NCBI GenBank assembly: GCA_002368605.1
Contig: DFEB01000065.1
Location: forward strand, 1-42,884
Length of the DNA: 42,884 bases
Reading direction: 5' to 3'
Source of the DNA: Treponema sp. UBA3813
Lineage (GTDB): Bacteria; Spirochaetota; Spirochaetia; Treponematales; Treponemataceae
How positions within the stretch are numbered: position 1 is the stretch's first letter; each line of letters opens with the position of its first letter. Position numbers and translations under genes: made by a program. Positions 2,261-7,824 of the stretch are shown piece after piece. A model generated the notes under the pieces. It worked only from the letters and a program-made list of their open reading frames with translations, had not been told where the DNA came from and searched no databases.

Positions 2261-4786
2261 CTACCCAAGATTTGCATTCTTTTCAATCAAGGGGACTTTT
2301 ACCTTCTTTCCTCGCGCCCCTTTCACCACAAGTTTTTCTTTCTCAAAGCCGACTTCCACTTCCCCGTTCTCAGGCACTTTTCCGCTCAGGATCAGGTTTG
2401 CAAGCTGGTCTTCAATTTCGTTCTGGATCAGGCGGCGCATCGGGCGTGCTCCCATGCTGGGCTCGTAGCCGTGGTCGAGAAGGTAATCACGGGCTTTTGG
2501 CTTTATTGAAAGATGAATGTTCTTTTCTGAAAGTCGATTTTCAAGCTCTGCAATCTGGATGTCGAGGATTTTTGAAATCTCTTCGCGCTTCAATGGATTG
2601 AAGACCACGATGTCGTCGATTCTGTTGATAAGCTCTGGTGCCATAATTCGCTTGAGTTCTTCCATGGCGTTGGCCTTTATTTCAGCGGGCGGCAAGAATC
2701 CGTCGTCCAGCTGGGCAAATCCAAGCTTTTTGTCGGCGGTAATGCTTCTGGCTCCGGCATTACTTGTCATTATGATTACGGTATTACGGAAGTTTACGGT
2801 ATGGCCAAGATTGTCGCTCAACTCGCCTTCTTCAAGAATCTGCAAGAGGAGATTGAAGACTTCATTATGAGCCTTTTCAATTTCATCAAAAAGAACCACG
2901 GAATATGGCTTTTGCAGGACTTTGTTGGTGAGCATACCGCCCTCTTCGTAGCCCACATAGCCCGGAGCCGAGCCCACAAGGCGGCTTGAAGTGTGCTTTT
3001 CCATGAAATCCGACATATCGATTCGGATAAGGGCTTCTTCCGTTCCGAAGAGGAATTTTGCCATTGCCTTTGCAAGCTGGGTTTTTCCAACGCCAGTAGG
3101 TCCCAAAAAGATGAAAGAGCCAAGAGGACGATTCGGTGAAGAAACCCCTGCCCGGCTTCGGCGGATTGCGCTTGAAAGATATTTTACGGCCTCGTCCTGT
3201 CCGATAACATCCTTGTGGATTTCCTTTTCCATGTCCAAAAGGCGGCCGCTTTCGGCAGAATCCAGCTGGGTGGCAGGAATTCCTGTCATATCCGAGATGA
3301 TTTGTGCCACATCAGTCACTGTGACATGCTTTCGCACGGTGACGGCATTGTTCTTCCAGTAATTGTTGAAATCGTCCAGTTTTTGCTTTAACTCCCGGAC
3401 TTTATCACGAATCATGGCGGCCCGCTCGTAATCCTGATTTGCAACAAGGGCTTCCTTTTCGTGACTCAAATTTTCGATTGATTTTTCAAGCTCGGCAAGT
3501 TCTGTCGGACGGCTCTCCGAAGTGATTTTTTTTGCGCTTCCCGCCTCGTCCAAGAGGTCAATGGCCTTATCCGGCTGGTATTTTTCGGGAATGTAACGGG
3601 ATGAAAGTTTGACGATTGCCTCGATTGAGCCTTCATCGTAAGTGACATTGTGGAATTCCTCGTATTTTGGCTTTAAGCCTTCAAGAATCTGAATCGTCTC
3701 TTCGGTTGAGGGCTCTTCGATTTTTACAAGCTGGAACCTTCGTGCCAATGCGGAATCTTTTTCAATGTATTTTCGGTATTCTTTAAAAGTTGTGGCTCCC
3801 ACAAGCTGCAAGTCTCCGCGGGAAAGAGCCGGCTTTAAGATATTGCTCGCGTCCATCGTGCCGTCAGGGCTTCCCGCGCCGATAATCATGTGCATTTCAT
3901 CGATAAAGAGAATGATGTCGCCAGATTCCTTGACTTCCTTCATCATGCGCTTCATTCGCTCTTCAAAGTCGCCACGATATTTCGTTCCTGCGACCATAGC
4001 CGTGATGTCCAGGAGAAGGACTCGTTTTTGAAGCAAATTGTATGGAACTTCACCAGAGGCGACCCTCTGGGCTAATCCCTCGGCCACGGAAGTTTTTCCC
4101 ACACCAGGCTCTCCCACGAGGATTGGATTGTTTTTCGTTCTTCGGCTTAAAATCTGAATCACCCGGTCAATTTCTTTTGCGCGTCCGATAACCGGGTCAA
4201 GCTCGCCCTTTTTTGCAAGTTCGGTTAAATCTCGGCTGAATTCTGCGAGGAAAGAGCGTTTTTTCTGATTTGGATTCTCATTATTGCGGGCATTAGCAAA
4301 TTCAGCCTCGCCTTTTTCATCGTTTGCTTCCTCGCCGCCGTTCTCGTTCTGCAAGTCACGGATTACATTTCGCACGGTCTCAAGCTGAATCGAAGCCCTT
4401 TCAAAAAAGCGGTAGCAGGCAGAATTTTCCTCACGGATTGCGGCAAGAAGAAGATGCTCCGTTCCCACATATTCGCTTCGGAGGGAGCGGGACTCAATCA
4501 CCGCCACATCAAGGAGAGTGCGCAGTCGTCGGCTGGGCGGCAGGGCGGAAAAAGCCGGGGGATTTGCCAGCCGGGGGAAAGTGGAAAGACTCTGCTCCAG
4601 TAAAAGCTGGAAAGAAAGTACATTTATATTGAGGACTTTAAGGGCGTTAAAGCCCATGCTGTCCGCTGATTTGAGCATGGCAAGAATCACATGCTCCGGT
4701 AAAAGTTCCGTAAGTCCTGAGTTTCGCCCCTCAGTCTGGGCATATTCTGTAAGAAGTCGTTGTGCTTTTGGAGAGAGACCTTTCAT
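2261..4786 (-). CDS. clpC: ClpC-type AAA+ unfoldase of the Clp protease
   Basis: ATP-driven unfoldase that feeds substrates to ClpP. The 841 residues hold two N-terminal Clp_N repeats (1-145), a first AAA+ module with Walker A GEPGVGKT (225-232) and Walker B IDEMH, a UVR/coiled middle domain (443-470) and a second AAA+ module with GPTGVGKT (562-569) and [11 protein letters not shown] Clp_C tail follows with the sensor-2 GARPMRR. The UVR middle domain marks it as ClpC rather than ClpB. An LGF tripeptide (688-690) is in the usual place of the ClpP-binding loop. It lies downstream of mcsA and mcsB, which in Firmicutes supply its adaptor and kinase. No ClpP, CtsR or CIRCE element is visible here. 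No Shine-Dalgarno precedes the start. Confidence 0.94.
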
Positions 4787-4848: not shown

Positions 4849-6198
4849 TTATCTCTTAGCTTCTATATATTCGTTCACAGCAGACTTGAAAGGAAAAGAA
4901 ACCTGCAGTTCTTTCATTATTTCTTCAGGTGTTTTATTTGTAGTTTTTATACTTATTTTGGAATCATCAATTTCTGCTGTTCCAGAGCCTTTATCAAAGT
5001 CATTTCCAAAAGAACTGCTTCTTTGGAAAGATTTTTTTACAGTATTTTCCAGTTTTATTCCATAATTTAAGAATTTTGCAGTCACATCTTTGCTGCAGTT
5101 CAATCTGTAACTATTCAGGCCATTTCCTACCGAATAAGAATTTTCGATATAAACAGGATTTGGCGCAGACCGTCTTGTAAATCCATCGCCATAATTATTG
5201 ATTGCACAACATTCATAAAATGAAACCGGTTCCAGAAAATCCTGTGGCTTTATCAATGCCTGACCAGACAAAACTTTCGGCGCAAAAGTCGTTCCCCAGA
5301 AAGGGCTTCCAAAACCACCACCATCACATCTTAAGTCAAGGGCACCGTTTTCCTTGTTATTCGCTCTCTGACATTTTGAATTCGTTAAAATATTATCAGC
5401 TTTACCAGAAAGTACCATTTCTTCACTGAAACCGTTATATCTTGCAGCACACCGCTTAAAAACAATATTACCTAAAGCATTGCAGGTATCAAATCCATCA
5501 TCAGAATTACAGTCAGCTACACAGTCTTCTAGAATAATATCTTTTGCTCCCTGTGCAATAAAAAATCCGTCCCCTTCTTCGCCCAAAGTAAAATCATCAT
5601 AATTTCCATGAGAATAACAATTCCTGATTCTTATGTTTCTTGTATAGACAGTTTTTTTGCTTCCGATTTTTCCGACAAGTCTGAATCCCTGATAATGGTT
5701 GTAACAGGATTCTATATTTTCAAGCACTATATTTTCACAAAGACTCAGACAGATTCCTGCAAACTGAGCCTTCATCACTTTTAGATTTTTTATTGAGCCT
5801 TTTTTTGCCTTCAAAAGATAAATTCCGGCAGAAGCTTCCATTTTTTTATCAAGCTCGCTGCTGTAATCCTTAATCATCCATTTATTGTTTTCAATCATAA
5901 ATTTTCTGATTTCAGCCAGGAGATTTTCATCGATGAACATGGTGGGACTAAAATCAATTACGGCATTATTTTCACCAATGATATTTATTTCATCGCCAGA
6001 AAAATAAAGCATTTCGGATTTAAAAATTCCATCGCTGCCATCAATAATCAAAGTTTTGTCAGCTTCAGAAGCAGCTTTTAAAAGAAAATTTGGCAAGTCA
6101 TTTGGTCCCGGACAGTTTTTTGCTGTAACTCGAATTGAAGCAAAAGATGCTGCGGAAAAAGCAAGAAAATAGAAAACAAAAAAAAGATTTTTTTTCAT
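4849..6198 (-). CDS. Exported right-handed beta-helix protein (pectate-lyase-like)
   Basis: 449 residues. A signal peptide covers about 1-20, with likely cleavage after ASFA. The body has many PbH1-like turns, such as NIVLENIESCYNHYQGF, NIRIRNCYSHGN and DIILEDCVADCNSDDGF, typical of parallel beta-helix polysaccharide lyases. The SDDGFD and NGALDLRCDGGGFG stretches recall PL9-type pectate lyases, but I cannot assign the catalytic residues with certainty. It is secreted or periplasmic and may act on plant or mucosal polysaccharide. It sits between mcsB and clpC, where Firmicute operons have no such gene. It is visibly more AT-rich than its neighbours and lacks a clear ribosome-binding site, which suggests insertion of a foreign gene. 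Confidence 0.7.
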   Translation of the reverse strand: MKKNLFFVFYFLAFSAASFASIRVTAKNCPGPNDLPNFLLKAASEADKTLIIDGSDGIFKSEMLYFSGDEINIIGENNAVIDFSPTMFIDENLLAEIRKFMIENNKWMIKDYSSELDKKMEASAGIYLLKAKKGSIKNLKVMKAQFAGICLSLCENIVLENIESCYNHYQGFRLVGKIGSKKTVYTRNIRIRNCYSHGNYDDFTLGEEGDGFFIAQGAKDIILEDCVADCNSDDGFDTCNALGNIVFKRCAARYNGFSEEMVLSGKADNILTNSKCQRANNKENGALDLRCDGGGFGSPFWGTTFAPKVLSGQALIKPQDFLEPVSFYECCAINNYGDGFTRRSAPNPVYIENSYSVGNGLNSYRLNCSKDVTAKFLNYGIKLENTVKKSFQRSSSFGNDFDKGSGTAEIDDSKISIKTTNKTPEEIMKELQVSFPFKSAVNEYIEAKR

Positions 6199-6211: not shown

Positions 6212-7309
6212 TTAATTCAGTTTGATATTCTCAAAGGCTTCCTGCAAAATGAGAGCCCTGAGATAGTCCGTCTTAAGAGATTTGCTTTCGGAAATGTCCA
6301 CGGGGAAATTGAATTTCCGATTTTTCAGCACGAACTGCAAATGTCCCTTCTGCACCCGGTACAAGAGGGCGCAGAGCTCAGAGTCTTCGATTCCGGCGAA
6401 AAAGCCAAGGTTCTTTCCCCATTTGATGTCAGAGATAATTTCGATTGCCTCCCGGTCGCTTATCAGAGAGGCGTATTTTACTTTTGCGTAAGAGCGGTAA
6501 ATGCGGTTACGGAGCTCAGTCTGCCGTGAGCGCAAGACCACATTTCTTTCCCGCCGCTCGTTCTCAACAAGATATTTTACCGAAGAAACAAGGCTGGCGA
6601 TTTGGTCAAGTTCAGTGCCGTTTCCCGCCGTTTTTGTAGAAATCTGATAGTAGAATCCCAAAGATGAAGAAGGAATAGTTCCCGTCCCAAAGCAATCGCT
6701 GACGATTATTTCTTTCTGGCTGAGGGATGAAAACAAATCCAATAACCGGCCCGAAAAAGAAAGAGAGGGTAAATGAAGCCTGCAAGAGACTTTCATGCCG
6801 CTTCCGCAGTCGTTCAAAGATGATGTGAGATAGCCGAAGTCGTAGTCAGCCGCAAACTGCATTGTGTTCTGCAATTCGTCGTCAATCTTCGCGCAGAGAG
6901 AAAAGGCTTCGTTGCCGTCCAATCCAGGCACAAAAGAAGCCAAGCGCACATGGTCTTTTGAATTTATGGCGCAGGAAACTTTGCCGTCGGTGCGAACGAT
7001 GATTCCGCTGCCCTTTTCCTTTGCGCTTTCTGAGTCCAGAACGCCCCGCTCTTCCAGAATGAGGGCTCCCAGTTCGTCAAGTTCCGAAGCCACCACTCCC
7101 TGATATTTGTCAGGCTCCTGACAGTGAGAAAATGAATCAAAAACCAAAGTCTGAACGCGAAAAGCGTCATCGTCCTTGAATTTACCGGGAAAGGGAAAAT
7201 TCGCTAAATTTCGGGCCAGGCGCACCCTGGTCGAGAGAACAACATCGTTTTCAGGCCCCTTGAAGGCGTACCATGCGTCACTTGAGAGATTTGTCTCGCT
7301 TTCTGCCAT
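6212..7309 (-). CDS. mcsB: McsB-family protein, catalytic residues apparently lost
   Basis: Similar along its full 365 residues to McsB, the protein-arginine kinase that marks proteins for ClpCP. Conserved are the start (GPENDVVLSTRVRLARN, 18-34), DHVRL (119-123), FGYLTS (158-163) and the NRIYRSYAKVKYASLIS stretch. Three active-site motifs are changed. NEEDH reads NSKDH (116-120), so both Glu are gone. CPTNxGT reads SLNDCGS (164-170), without the Cys at the usual place. The GEGSE loop reads GTGTIPSSS (208-216), without its Glu. The C-terminal phosphoarginine-sensing RDxxRA is partly kept as TDYLRA (347-352). It starts on the last base of the mcsA stop (TAATG). It may be a pseudokinase adaptor. 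The comparison uses motifs recalled from Bacillus McsB and arginine kinases, not a computed alignment. Confidence 0.82.
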   Translation of the reverse strand: MAESETNLSSDAWYAFKGPENDVVLSTRVRLARNLANFPFPGKFKDDDAFRVQTLVFDSFSHCQEPDKYQGVVASELDELGALILEERGVLDSESAKEKGSGIIVRTDGKVSCAINSKDHVRLASFVPGLDGNEAFSLCAKIDDELQNTMQFAADYDFGYLTSSLNDCGSGMKVSCRLHLPSLSFSGRLLDLFSSLSQKEIIVSDCFGTGTIPSSSLGFYYQISTKTAGNGTELDQIASLVSSVKYLVENERRERNVVLRSRQTELRNRIYRSYAKVKYASLISDREAIEIISDIKWGKNLGFFAGIEDSELCALLYRVQKGHLQFVLKNRKFNFPVDISESKSLKTDYLRALILQEAFENIKLN

Positions 7310-7824
7310 TATTCTTCTCCGCCTGAAACCGGGGATTTTTCAAGAGCCTTGAGATAGTCACGGTAGACCGCCGCCTTCTCATAATCTTCCCGCTTTAATG
7401 ACTCTTCCAATTTTGCCTGAATGATGATTCTGTCGGTAAGGACTGAGCGGAAATTCTTGAGCCGCTTGGGAAGAGTGCCTTTGTATGGAGGAATGACGCC
7501 GATTTTTTTGAAAGAATCCTGGGCCTCGCTCTTAAAGACTGCATAGCACTCAGGACAGCCGGCATGGCGGGTCATGGTGATTTCTTTTACGCTGCTTCCG
7601 CAGACAGGGCAGACTCGGTTATCTTCTTTTTGATTCTGGACTTTATTTTTTCCGAGAAGTGAATCAAAAAGCATGGCAAGAGAACGGCCGATTGACTTAG
7701 AATCTGGAGAAACGCCGTTTTTTCTGGCACATTCCACGCAAAGATTGAGTTTTCGTTTATTATTTGCATTGGTCTGCTCTATAAAAAGAACAGCCTCGTT
7801 TTCACCGCATAAATCGCAGAGCAT
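7309..7824 (-). CDS. mcsA: McsA-type zinc-finger/UVR activator of McsB
   Basis: 171 residues. Four Cys pairs, CDLC (3-6), CVEC (29-32), CPVC (73-76) and CPEC (90-93), form the two zinc-binding units of McsA. A C-terminal UVR motif (LEESLKREDYEKAAVYRD, about 138-155) matches the UVR segment of ClpC and UvrB. In Firmicutes McsA binds and activates McsB and links it to ClpC. Here it heads the group, is translationally coupled to the mcsB-like gene, and has AGGA six bases before its ATG. Since the partner seems catalytically dead, McsA may now serve mainly as a ClpC adaptor; that is inference. Confidence 0.85.
   Translation of the reverse strand: MLCDLCGENEAVLFIEQTNANNKRKLNLCVECARKNGVSPDSKSIGRSLAMLFDSLLGKNKVQNQKEDNRVCPVCGSSVKEITMTRHAGCPECYAVFKSEAQDSFKKIGVIPPYKGTLPKRLKNFRSVLTDRIIIQAKLEESLKREDYEKAAVYRDYLKALEKSPVSGGEE

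Follow-up and report, generated by a model that had tools for sequence, protein, structure and literature searches.

Introduction

McsB writes phosphoarginine, a mark for degradation; disentangling its work as an adaptor from its work as a kinase has proved difficult. In Bacillus subtilis the gene for CtsR adjoins mcsAB. We take E121, C167 and E212 to be the catalytic residues of McsB (residue numbers are those of the B. subtilis protein throughout) and presume that they match Glu225, Cys271 and Glu314 of animal arginine kinase. The available text of one study calls these three residues of the animal enzyme essential (PMC11075012).

According to the accessible part of a study of B. subtilis McsB, arginine-to-lysine substitution at R29, R31, R34, R125, R176, R207 or R337 each abolished the kinase signal, and C167S served as a kinase-inactive allele (PMC7235348). 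The same study found that the R341 lysine mutant was no longer stimulated by McsA and that R96 of McsA was needed for stimulation of McsB (PMC7235348). R337, D338, R341 and S285 of B. subtilis McsB are described as binding phosphoarginine in the text available to us of another report (PMC8370763), and a review, as far as its available text goes, credits the second McsA zinc finger with a part in orienting McsB's catalytic cysteine (PMC12467219). The half-life of MgsR was 12.3 min with mcsB C167S versus 17.7 min in the deletion, and a kinase-independent adaptor function of McsB was proposed by those authors, in the part at hand with ClpX rather than ClpC in mind (PMC7235348).

The protein described here shares near full-length homology and the N-terminal arginines with the McsB kinases of B. 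subtilis, Geobacillus stearothermophilus and Staphylococcus aureus (8wtb, 6fh1 and 8gqd), as well as the DH and GxG elements of the catalytic loops, R341, the partner McsA and, in most loci, the neighbour clpC. It differs from them at E121, C167, E212, N170, R176, R207 and R337, and no CtsR was found in its genome. By title and abstract, no prior description of a spirochaete McsB pseudokinase was found in the open-licence literature, which is no proof of novelty.

Results

An McsB homologue next to mcsA

The window, meaning the whole 42,884-nucleotide stretch of contig DFEB01000065.1 of Treponema sp. UBA3813 that was analysed, carries an mcsB-like gene for a predicted pseudokinase of 365 amino acids (P0001; 6212..7309), which runs on the minus strand from 7309 to 6212. 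The original prediction gave these coordinates exactly and left out the strand. Its alignment by eye with Bacillus McsB was also borne out, as residues 7–325, near full length, aligned with Geobacillus McsB 6fh1 in phmmer (E 8.6e-47), and Pfam PF00217 (ATP:guanido phosphotransferase) was matched at 105.9 bits against a cut-off of 22.4. The closest solved relatives are all McsB structures (6fh1, 8wtb, 6tv6 and 8gqd). The near full-length alignment suggests that the McsB fold survives, as had been predicted as well. The protein scored below the cut-offs of both NCBIfam equivalogs for protein-arginine kinase (219.7 versus 385 bits for NF002194 and 211.8 versus 500 bits for NF053707); the NF002194 cut-off was passed by none of 392 spirochaete genomes, intact-looking copies included. 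By homology and by its operon with mcsA and clpC the protein is thus an McsB by descent that lies below the equivalog cut-off.

The gene order in the window is mcsA, mcsB, a beta-helix ORF and clpC. The mcsA gene (171 aa; 7309..7824, minus strand) encodes eight zinc-finger cysteines and a UVR motif, and its stop overlaps the mcsB start in the sequence TAATG; its only match was to an NCBIfam model, at 75.7 bits (cut-off 210). Further upstream lie genes that by eye resemble an ABC transporter of the lolCDE kind. The clpC product (841 aa; 2261..4786, minus strand) has a Clp N domain, a UVR motif, a Pfam/NCBIfam Clp ATPase match, an LGF loop by eye and, in the N domain, Glu at both (P/T)EH positions. 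Between mcsB and clpC lies an ORF for a right-handed beta-helix protein (449 aa; 4849..6198, minus strand), whose start looks signal-like by eye and whose pectate-lyase-type match is weak (36 bits, cut-off 740). A similar ORF was seen at this position only in L032 and in L002, which is from the same genome as L033. In L031, whose McsB is 98% identical, clpC follows mcsB directly. Because this locus lacks the ORF while the window, L032, L002 and L033 have it, the ORF is a recent gain or loss within the operon, and it is not considered part of the McsA-McsB-ClpC system.

Active-site residues of the window protein

The N-terminal RVRLAR motif (window R28–R33; 7211..7228, minus strand) corresponds to R29, R31 and R34 of B. 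subtilis McsB, all of which are kept. All further motifs are likewise on the minus strand. NEEDHIR is replaced by NSKDHVR (6944..6964), in which E121 becomes K, with D122, H123 and R125 kept. CPTNVGTGLRAS is replaced by SLNDCGSGMKVS (6785..6820), which changes C167 to S, N170 to D and R176 to K, and VRGTYGEGSEAL by VSDCFGTGTIPSSSL (6659..6703), which changes R207 to S and E212 to T and has a small insertion. The RDxxRA motif of the C-terminal phosphoarginine receptor site reads TDYLRA (6254..6271), with R337 changed to T and with D338 and R341 kept; R341 was placed with the help of an additional comparison beyond the phmmer span of residues 7–325. Elsewhere, R86 is L, R281 is S and S285 is D. 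The active-site arginines R29, R34, R125, R176 and R207 therefore read R, R, R, K and S, and the receptor residues R337, D338, R341 and S285 read T, D, R and D, which is less than the full set.

The original prediction had named NSKDH, SLNDCGS and GTGTIPSSS as motif replacements, with loss of both catalytic glutamates and the cysteine, and had noted a kept STRVRLARN and a C-terminal TDYLRA. All of this was recovered as written (E121K, E212T and C167S), although the reading was incomplete, having missed R176K, R207S, N170D, R86L and R281S. At E121, C167 and E212, the residues expected of an active protein-arginine kinase, the window has K, S and T. Two of its changes, C167S and R176K, are each kinase-dead alone in B. 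subtilis, and its S at R207 and T at R337 occupy sites where arginine-to-lysine substitution was dead, as stated in the accessible part of that work (PMC7235348).

Loss of catalytic residues across the window's family

The protein turned up in 67 of 97 relatives searched, and 242 of 392 genomes of the phylum gave an McsB-like protein in a profile search. The loci used were a subset from both searches plus 11 named loci (10 Treponema and one Spirochaetaceae), and five short pieces and five duplicates were removed from the 169 matching ORFs. The window's family is Treponemataceae, as judged from the named Treponema loci and the NCBI lineage of T. ruminis; its set comprised 90 distinct rows from 97 loci, with frames of at least 250 aa and two pairs more than 97% identical. 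The comparison set comprised 28 rows from eight intact-looking spirochaete families (among L079–L105 and L108), and a third set held 42 rows from other families, including L165 (family f51), which lacks C167 yet groups with the 28 on the tree.

C167 was kept in none of the 90 window-family copies, in 26 of the 28 comparison copies and in none of the 42 others. E121 was kept in 11/90 versus 27/28, and position 212 was E or D in 1/90 versus 20/28, the loop around it differing in length across copies. All three positions were lost in 79 window-family copies and all three kept in none, whereas 18 of the 28 comparison copies, which share the same operon, keep E121, C167 and E or D at 212; this contrast is partly by construction, since the eight families were picked after the motifs had been seen and their rows are the best-scoring kinase-profile matches, taken family by family with misses included. 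The predicted catalytic death thus extends, in the homologue alignment, beyond the window's own gene. Position 170 is D in 71/90 window-family copies and N in 28/28 comparison copies. Other positions are near-fixed in the window family, namely R341, H123, N119 and the first G of the GxG loop (90/90 each), R34 (89/90) and D122 (88/90), and position 236 is an invariant Q where all 28 comparison copies have I. R29, R31, R34 and R125 are all present in 54/90, because of which ATP may still bind the McsB proteins of this family.

The comparison set has R176K in 6/28, R207K in 16/28 and no R337 in 28/28. As these changes are common to intact-looking families, we rejected the idea that changes at R176, R207 and R337 could by themselves prove a kinase dead; here R176K, R207K and the loss of R337 are weak evidence of it. 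Assembly error was rejected as well, because the 90 distinct copies, all without C167, stem from separate assemblies that include the complete T. ruminis RU1 chromosome (L035). Sequencing error is disfavoured by the number of copies and by their low dN/dS (below). Frames were split in two of the 97 window-family loci (L043 and L137).

A quickly built tree of 95 rows, weakly supported at its deep branches, showed at least five changes of state at C167, some of which fell within the intact-looking clade (L089, L104 and L165). The window family formed one group (support 100) within a wider set of 63 rows, all without C167 (support 94), and the main loss of C167 may have been one deep event or several. 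In a separate family, f30, mcsA and mcsB stand together in four loci (L155–L157 and L167) with C167 replaced by S, and no clpC was seen in about 3 kb downstream of mcsB at these four loci.

Relaxation and selection

Relaxation was assessed from column entropy in the window family versus the 28 comparison rows over 338 positions. By gain of variability, E121 ranked 2, E120 ranked 3 and C167 ranked 12; E212 ranked 143, since it already varies in the 28 comparison copies. A one-sided rank test on these four positions gave p = 0.004. D338 ranked 21 and was thus among the more relaxed positions. The ranks rather than the raw entropies carry the argument, because the window family is somewhat more divergent (mean identity 0.43 over the first 2000 pairs, versus 0.49 in the comparison set). 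Pairwise dN/dS between the window gene and seven close Treponema copies was 0.027–0.090 in the 23 of 28 pairs that were computable, single ratios being rough since dS was saturated in the other five pairs and exceeded 1 in many of the rest. With its catalytic residues lost and its gene conserved under purifying selection, the window protein classes as a pseudokinase.

Partners of McsB and their joint loss

The mcsA gene lies directly upstream of mcsB in 88/88 testable window-family loci and 27/28 comparison loci, and clpC directly downstream in 81/87 and 28/28, respectively. Among the six window-family loci without clpC at that position is L032, with its intervening beta-helix ORF; at three others, all from close relatives (L035 from T. 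ruminis, L037 and L038), the 6 kb downstream showed no clpC. In McsA, the second zinc finger has all four cysteines in 87/88 window-family copies, and the first finger has gaps in 13 to 16 of the 88, some of them perhaps from truncated ORFs. The position of McsA R96 is H in the window and varied across the family. In ClpC, the (P/T)EH glutamates of the N domain, which presumably contact phosphoarginine, are kept at both sites in 81/81 window-family copies.

The profile search of 392 genomes matched McsB in 75 of 80 window-family genomes. Of 17 McsB-negative genomes of the family, 13 were examined for clpC and mcsA. In 12 of the 13 the best ClpC match had 48–91% identity; that of G051, at 42–45%, may be another Clp ATPase. 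McsA-profile matches were obtained in 10 of the 13, all to the UVR end (profile positions 135–179) and all in frames of at least 666 aa except a 45-aa frame at a contig edge in G013, which could be a cut mcsA. No trace of mcsB was found with the family profile around clpC in 11 McsB-negative loci, about 1.5 kb or less being covered on each side. In L220 and L221 a permease-like gene (by eye), of the type that precedes mcsA in the window, stands directly before clpC, and mcsA and mcsB are both absent. At least two relatives have thus lost mcsA and mcsB together while retaining clpC, in keeping with a function that the two genes share. In L219, from a relative (genome G038) that gave no McsB match, a clpC 91% identical to that of the window lies near nadD-like and transposase-like frames (by eye), with no trace of mcsB in the stretch around clpC. 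G152, a 1.1 Mb genome of the window's family, has a ClpC match at 48% identity, no mcsB match and mcsA matches to the UVR end only.

Second kinase, CtsR and phosphatase

The window's genome (88.5% complete) yielded a single PF00217 protein; a further source of phosphoarginine of this type is thus not apparent. A search of the same genome for CtsR was negative. The B. subtilis genome used as a control, which we take to carry both McsB and CtsR genes, gave no match to NF002194, PF00217 or CtsR and seems to be an incomplete copy there, so that single absences are to be read with care.

A Thr in the P-loop of YwlE marks arginine phosphatases. P-loops were read by a regular expression, to which 2 of 23 comparison loci had no hit. 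The CTGNTCRSP-type loop was found in 0/21 window-family genomes (the window's and 20 others, eight of them without any PF01451 match) and in 1/20 comparison genomes, 16 of which had a PF01451 match. Since this test did not discriminate, YwlE was rejected as a marker of live phosphoarginine signalling. A review, in its accessible text, has a single residue deciding YwlE-type specificity (PMC5506225).

Discussion

The reading that we hold somewhat probable is that an McsB pseudokinase is fixed across the window's family and, together with McsA, takes a non-catalytic part in ClpC action, as adaptor or regulator. Its parts differ in strength. Loss of catalysis in this type of McsB is well supported by the residues at the active site: McsB has lost those that activate the target arginine and transfer the phosphate, while its partner McsA and usually the operon with ClpC are kept. 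The adaptor role is suggested by the operon and by the B. subtilis precedent. We also infer the absence of kinase activity in vitro, the formation of a complex and the direction of action on ClpC. McsB would most likely form a complex with McsA, and the pair would act on ClpC, or on ClpC plus ClpP, by bringing in or holding back substrates in a manner free of arginine phosphorylation. Because the literature ties activation of ClpC by McsB to kinase activity, in the treponeme protein the two would have become uncoupled, unless it acts by inhibiting or holding.

The original prediction offered two roles, as an adaptor or as a reader of phosphoarginine. The adaptor role fits the conservation of the operon, the loss of mcsA together with mcsB, and the C167S allele of B. 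subtilis, which has the same serine as the window and, in the accessible text, still affects MgsR turnover in part and independently of kinase activity (PMC7235348); reading of phosphoarginine fared less well. That allele is a laboratory mutant altered at this single residue, whereas the dead state suggested for the window is natural, multiple and fixed in a family. Cysteine mutants of animal arginine kinase are reportedly 'partially active', in the title of a 2004 paper by Gattis that is cited in PMC11075012, which counts against the pseudokinase reading. Also counting against it, adaptor action on ClpC in B. subtilis depends on kinase activity according to the available text of a review (PMC5506225), and the link to ClpC is weakened by the 6/87 loci where clpC is not directly downstream. 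The dispensability of the pair in some relatives and the replacement of McsA R96 count against it as well.

Were the C-terminal receptor site to bind phosphoarginine on substrates and hand them to ClpC, one would expect that site and its counterpart in ClpC to persist, and in part they do: R341 is present in 90/90, position 338 is D or E in 52/90 with both D and R kept in the window, and the ClpC glutamates are retained at both sites in 81/81. The site is eroded elsewhere, however. R337 is found in 0/90, a loss that does not discriminate since it is equally absent from 28/28 intact-looking copies; S285 is D in the window, though Y in 24/28 of those copies; and D338 is among the more relaxed positions. 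The sole PF00217 protein in the 88.5% complete genome and the YwlE-type P-loop in 0/21 family genomes, albeit in only 1/20 comparison genomes, also speak against it. With R337 gone and no second PF00217 protein found, such reading by treponeme McsB is possible but less likely, and we consider it unlikely overall. A kinase for arginine or another substrate whose catalysis relies on other residues, such as the aspartate at 170, would account for the near-invariance of R34, D122, H123 and the first G of GxG, for the survival of E121 in 11/90 and for D at 170 in 71/90 as an acid specific to the family. Against this stand the high variability of the E121 and C167 columns, which offer no conserved substitute, the varying length of the E212 loop, and the nature of position 170 itself: D is present there in only 71/90, and an acid should repel the phosphoryl group, because N274 of animal arginine kinase, the equivalent of N170 given that C271 matches C167, contacts that group in the available text (PMC11075012). 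We regard an altered kinase as quite unlikely.

That the gene is a disappearing relic, retained solely through its position in the operon, is disfavoured and seems very improbable. The missing pair in some relatives, G152 without an mcsB match and the two split frames among 97 loci would suit it, but dN/dS of 0.027–0.090, 90 distinct copies with frames of at least 250 aa, invariants specific to the family such as Q236 and the second McsA zinc finger intact in 87/88 argue for a gene under constraint. A bolder form of the adaptor reading, possible but doubtful, is that McsA-McsB in the Treponema family is a phosphorylation-free degradation adaptor with its pocket repurposed for another ligand, the phosphoarginine pathway having been rewired to run without its mark. 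This might hold for much of the class, because none of the 42 other non-canonical spirochaete copies has C167. The former pocket, with its GSGMK loop and the conserved acid at N170, would then be the site for a ligand such as unmodified arginine or a cationic degron.

Serine/threonine pseudokinases of bacteria have a different kinase fold, McsB being a phosphagen (guanidino) kinase. What the window protein would have in common with them is lost catalysis combined with scaffold or allosteric roles, as described in the accessible text of a review, where McsB is named only among the references (PMC12599244). For the spirochaetes the finding carries a warning, in that an mcsA-mcsB-clpC operon is not proof of arginine phosphorylation; even the activity of intact-looking spirochaete McsB is in question, given R337 in 0/28 and R207K in 16/28. 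If the pseudokinase reading is true, a natural lineage that holds McsA, McsB and ClpC minus catalysis would provide a ready-made separation of the adaptor role from the kinase role, and the McsA-McsB-ClpC complex would have a selected function without phosphoarginine.
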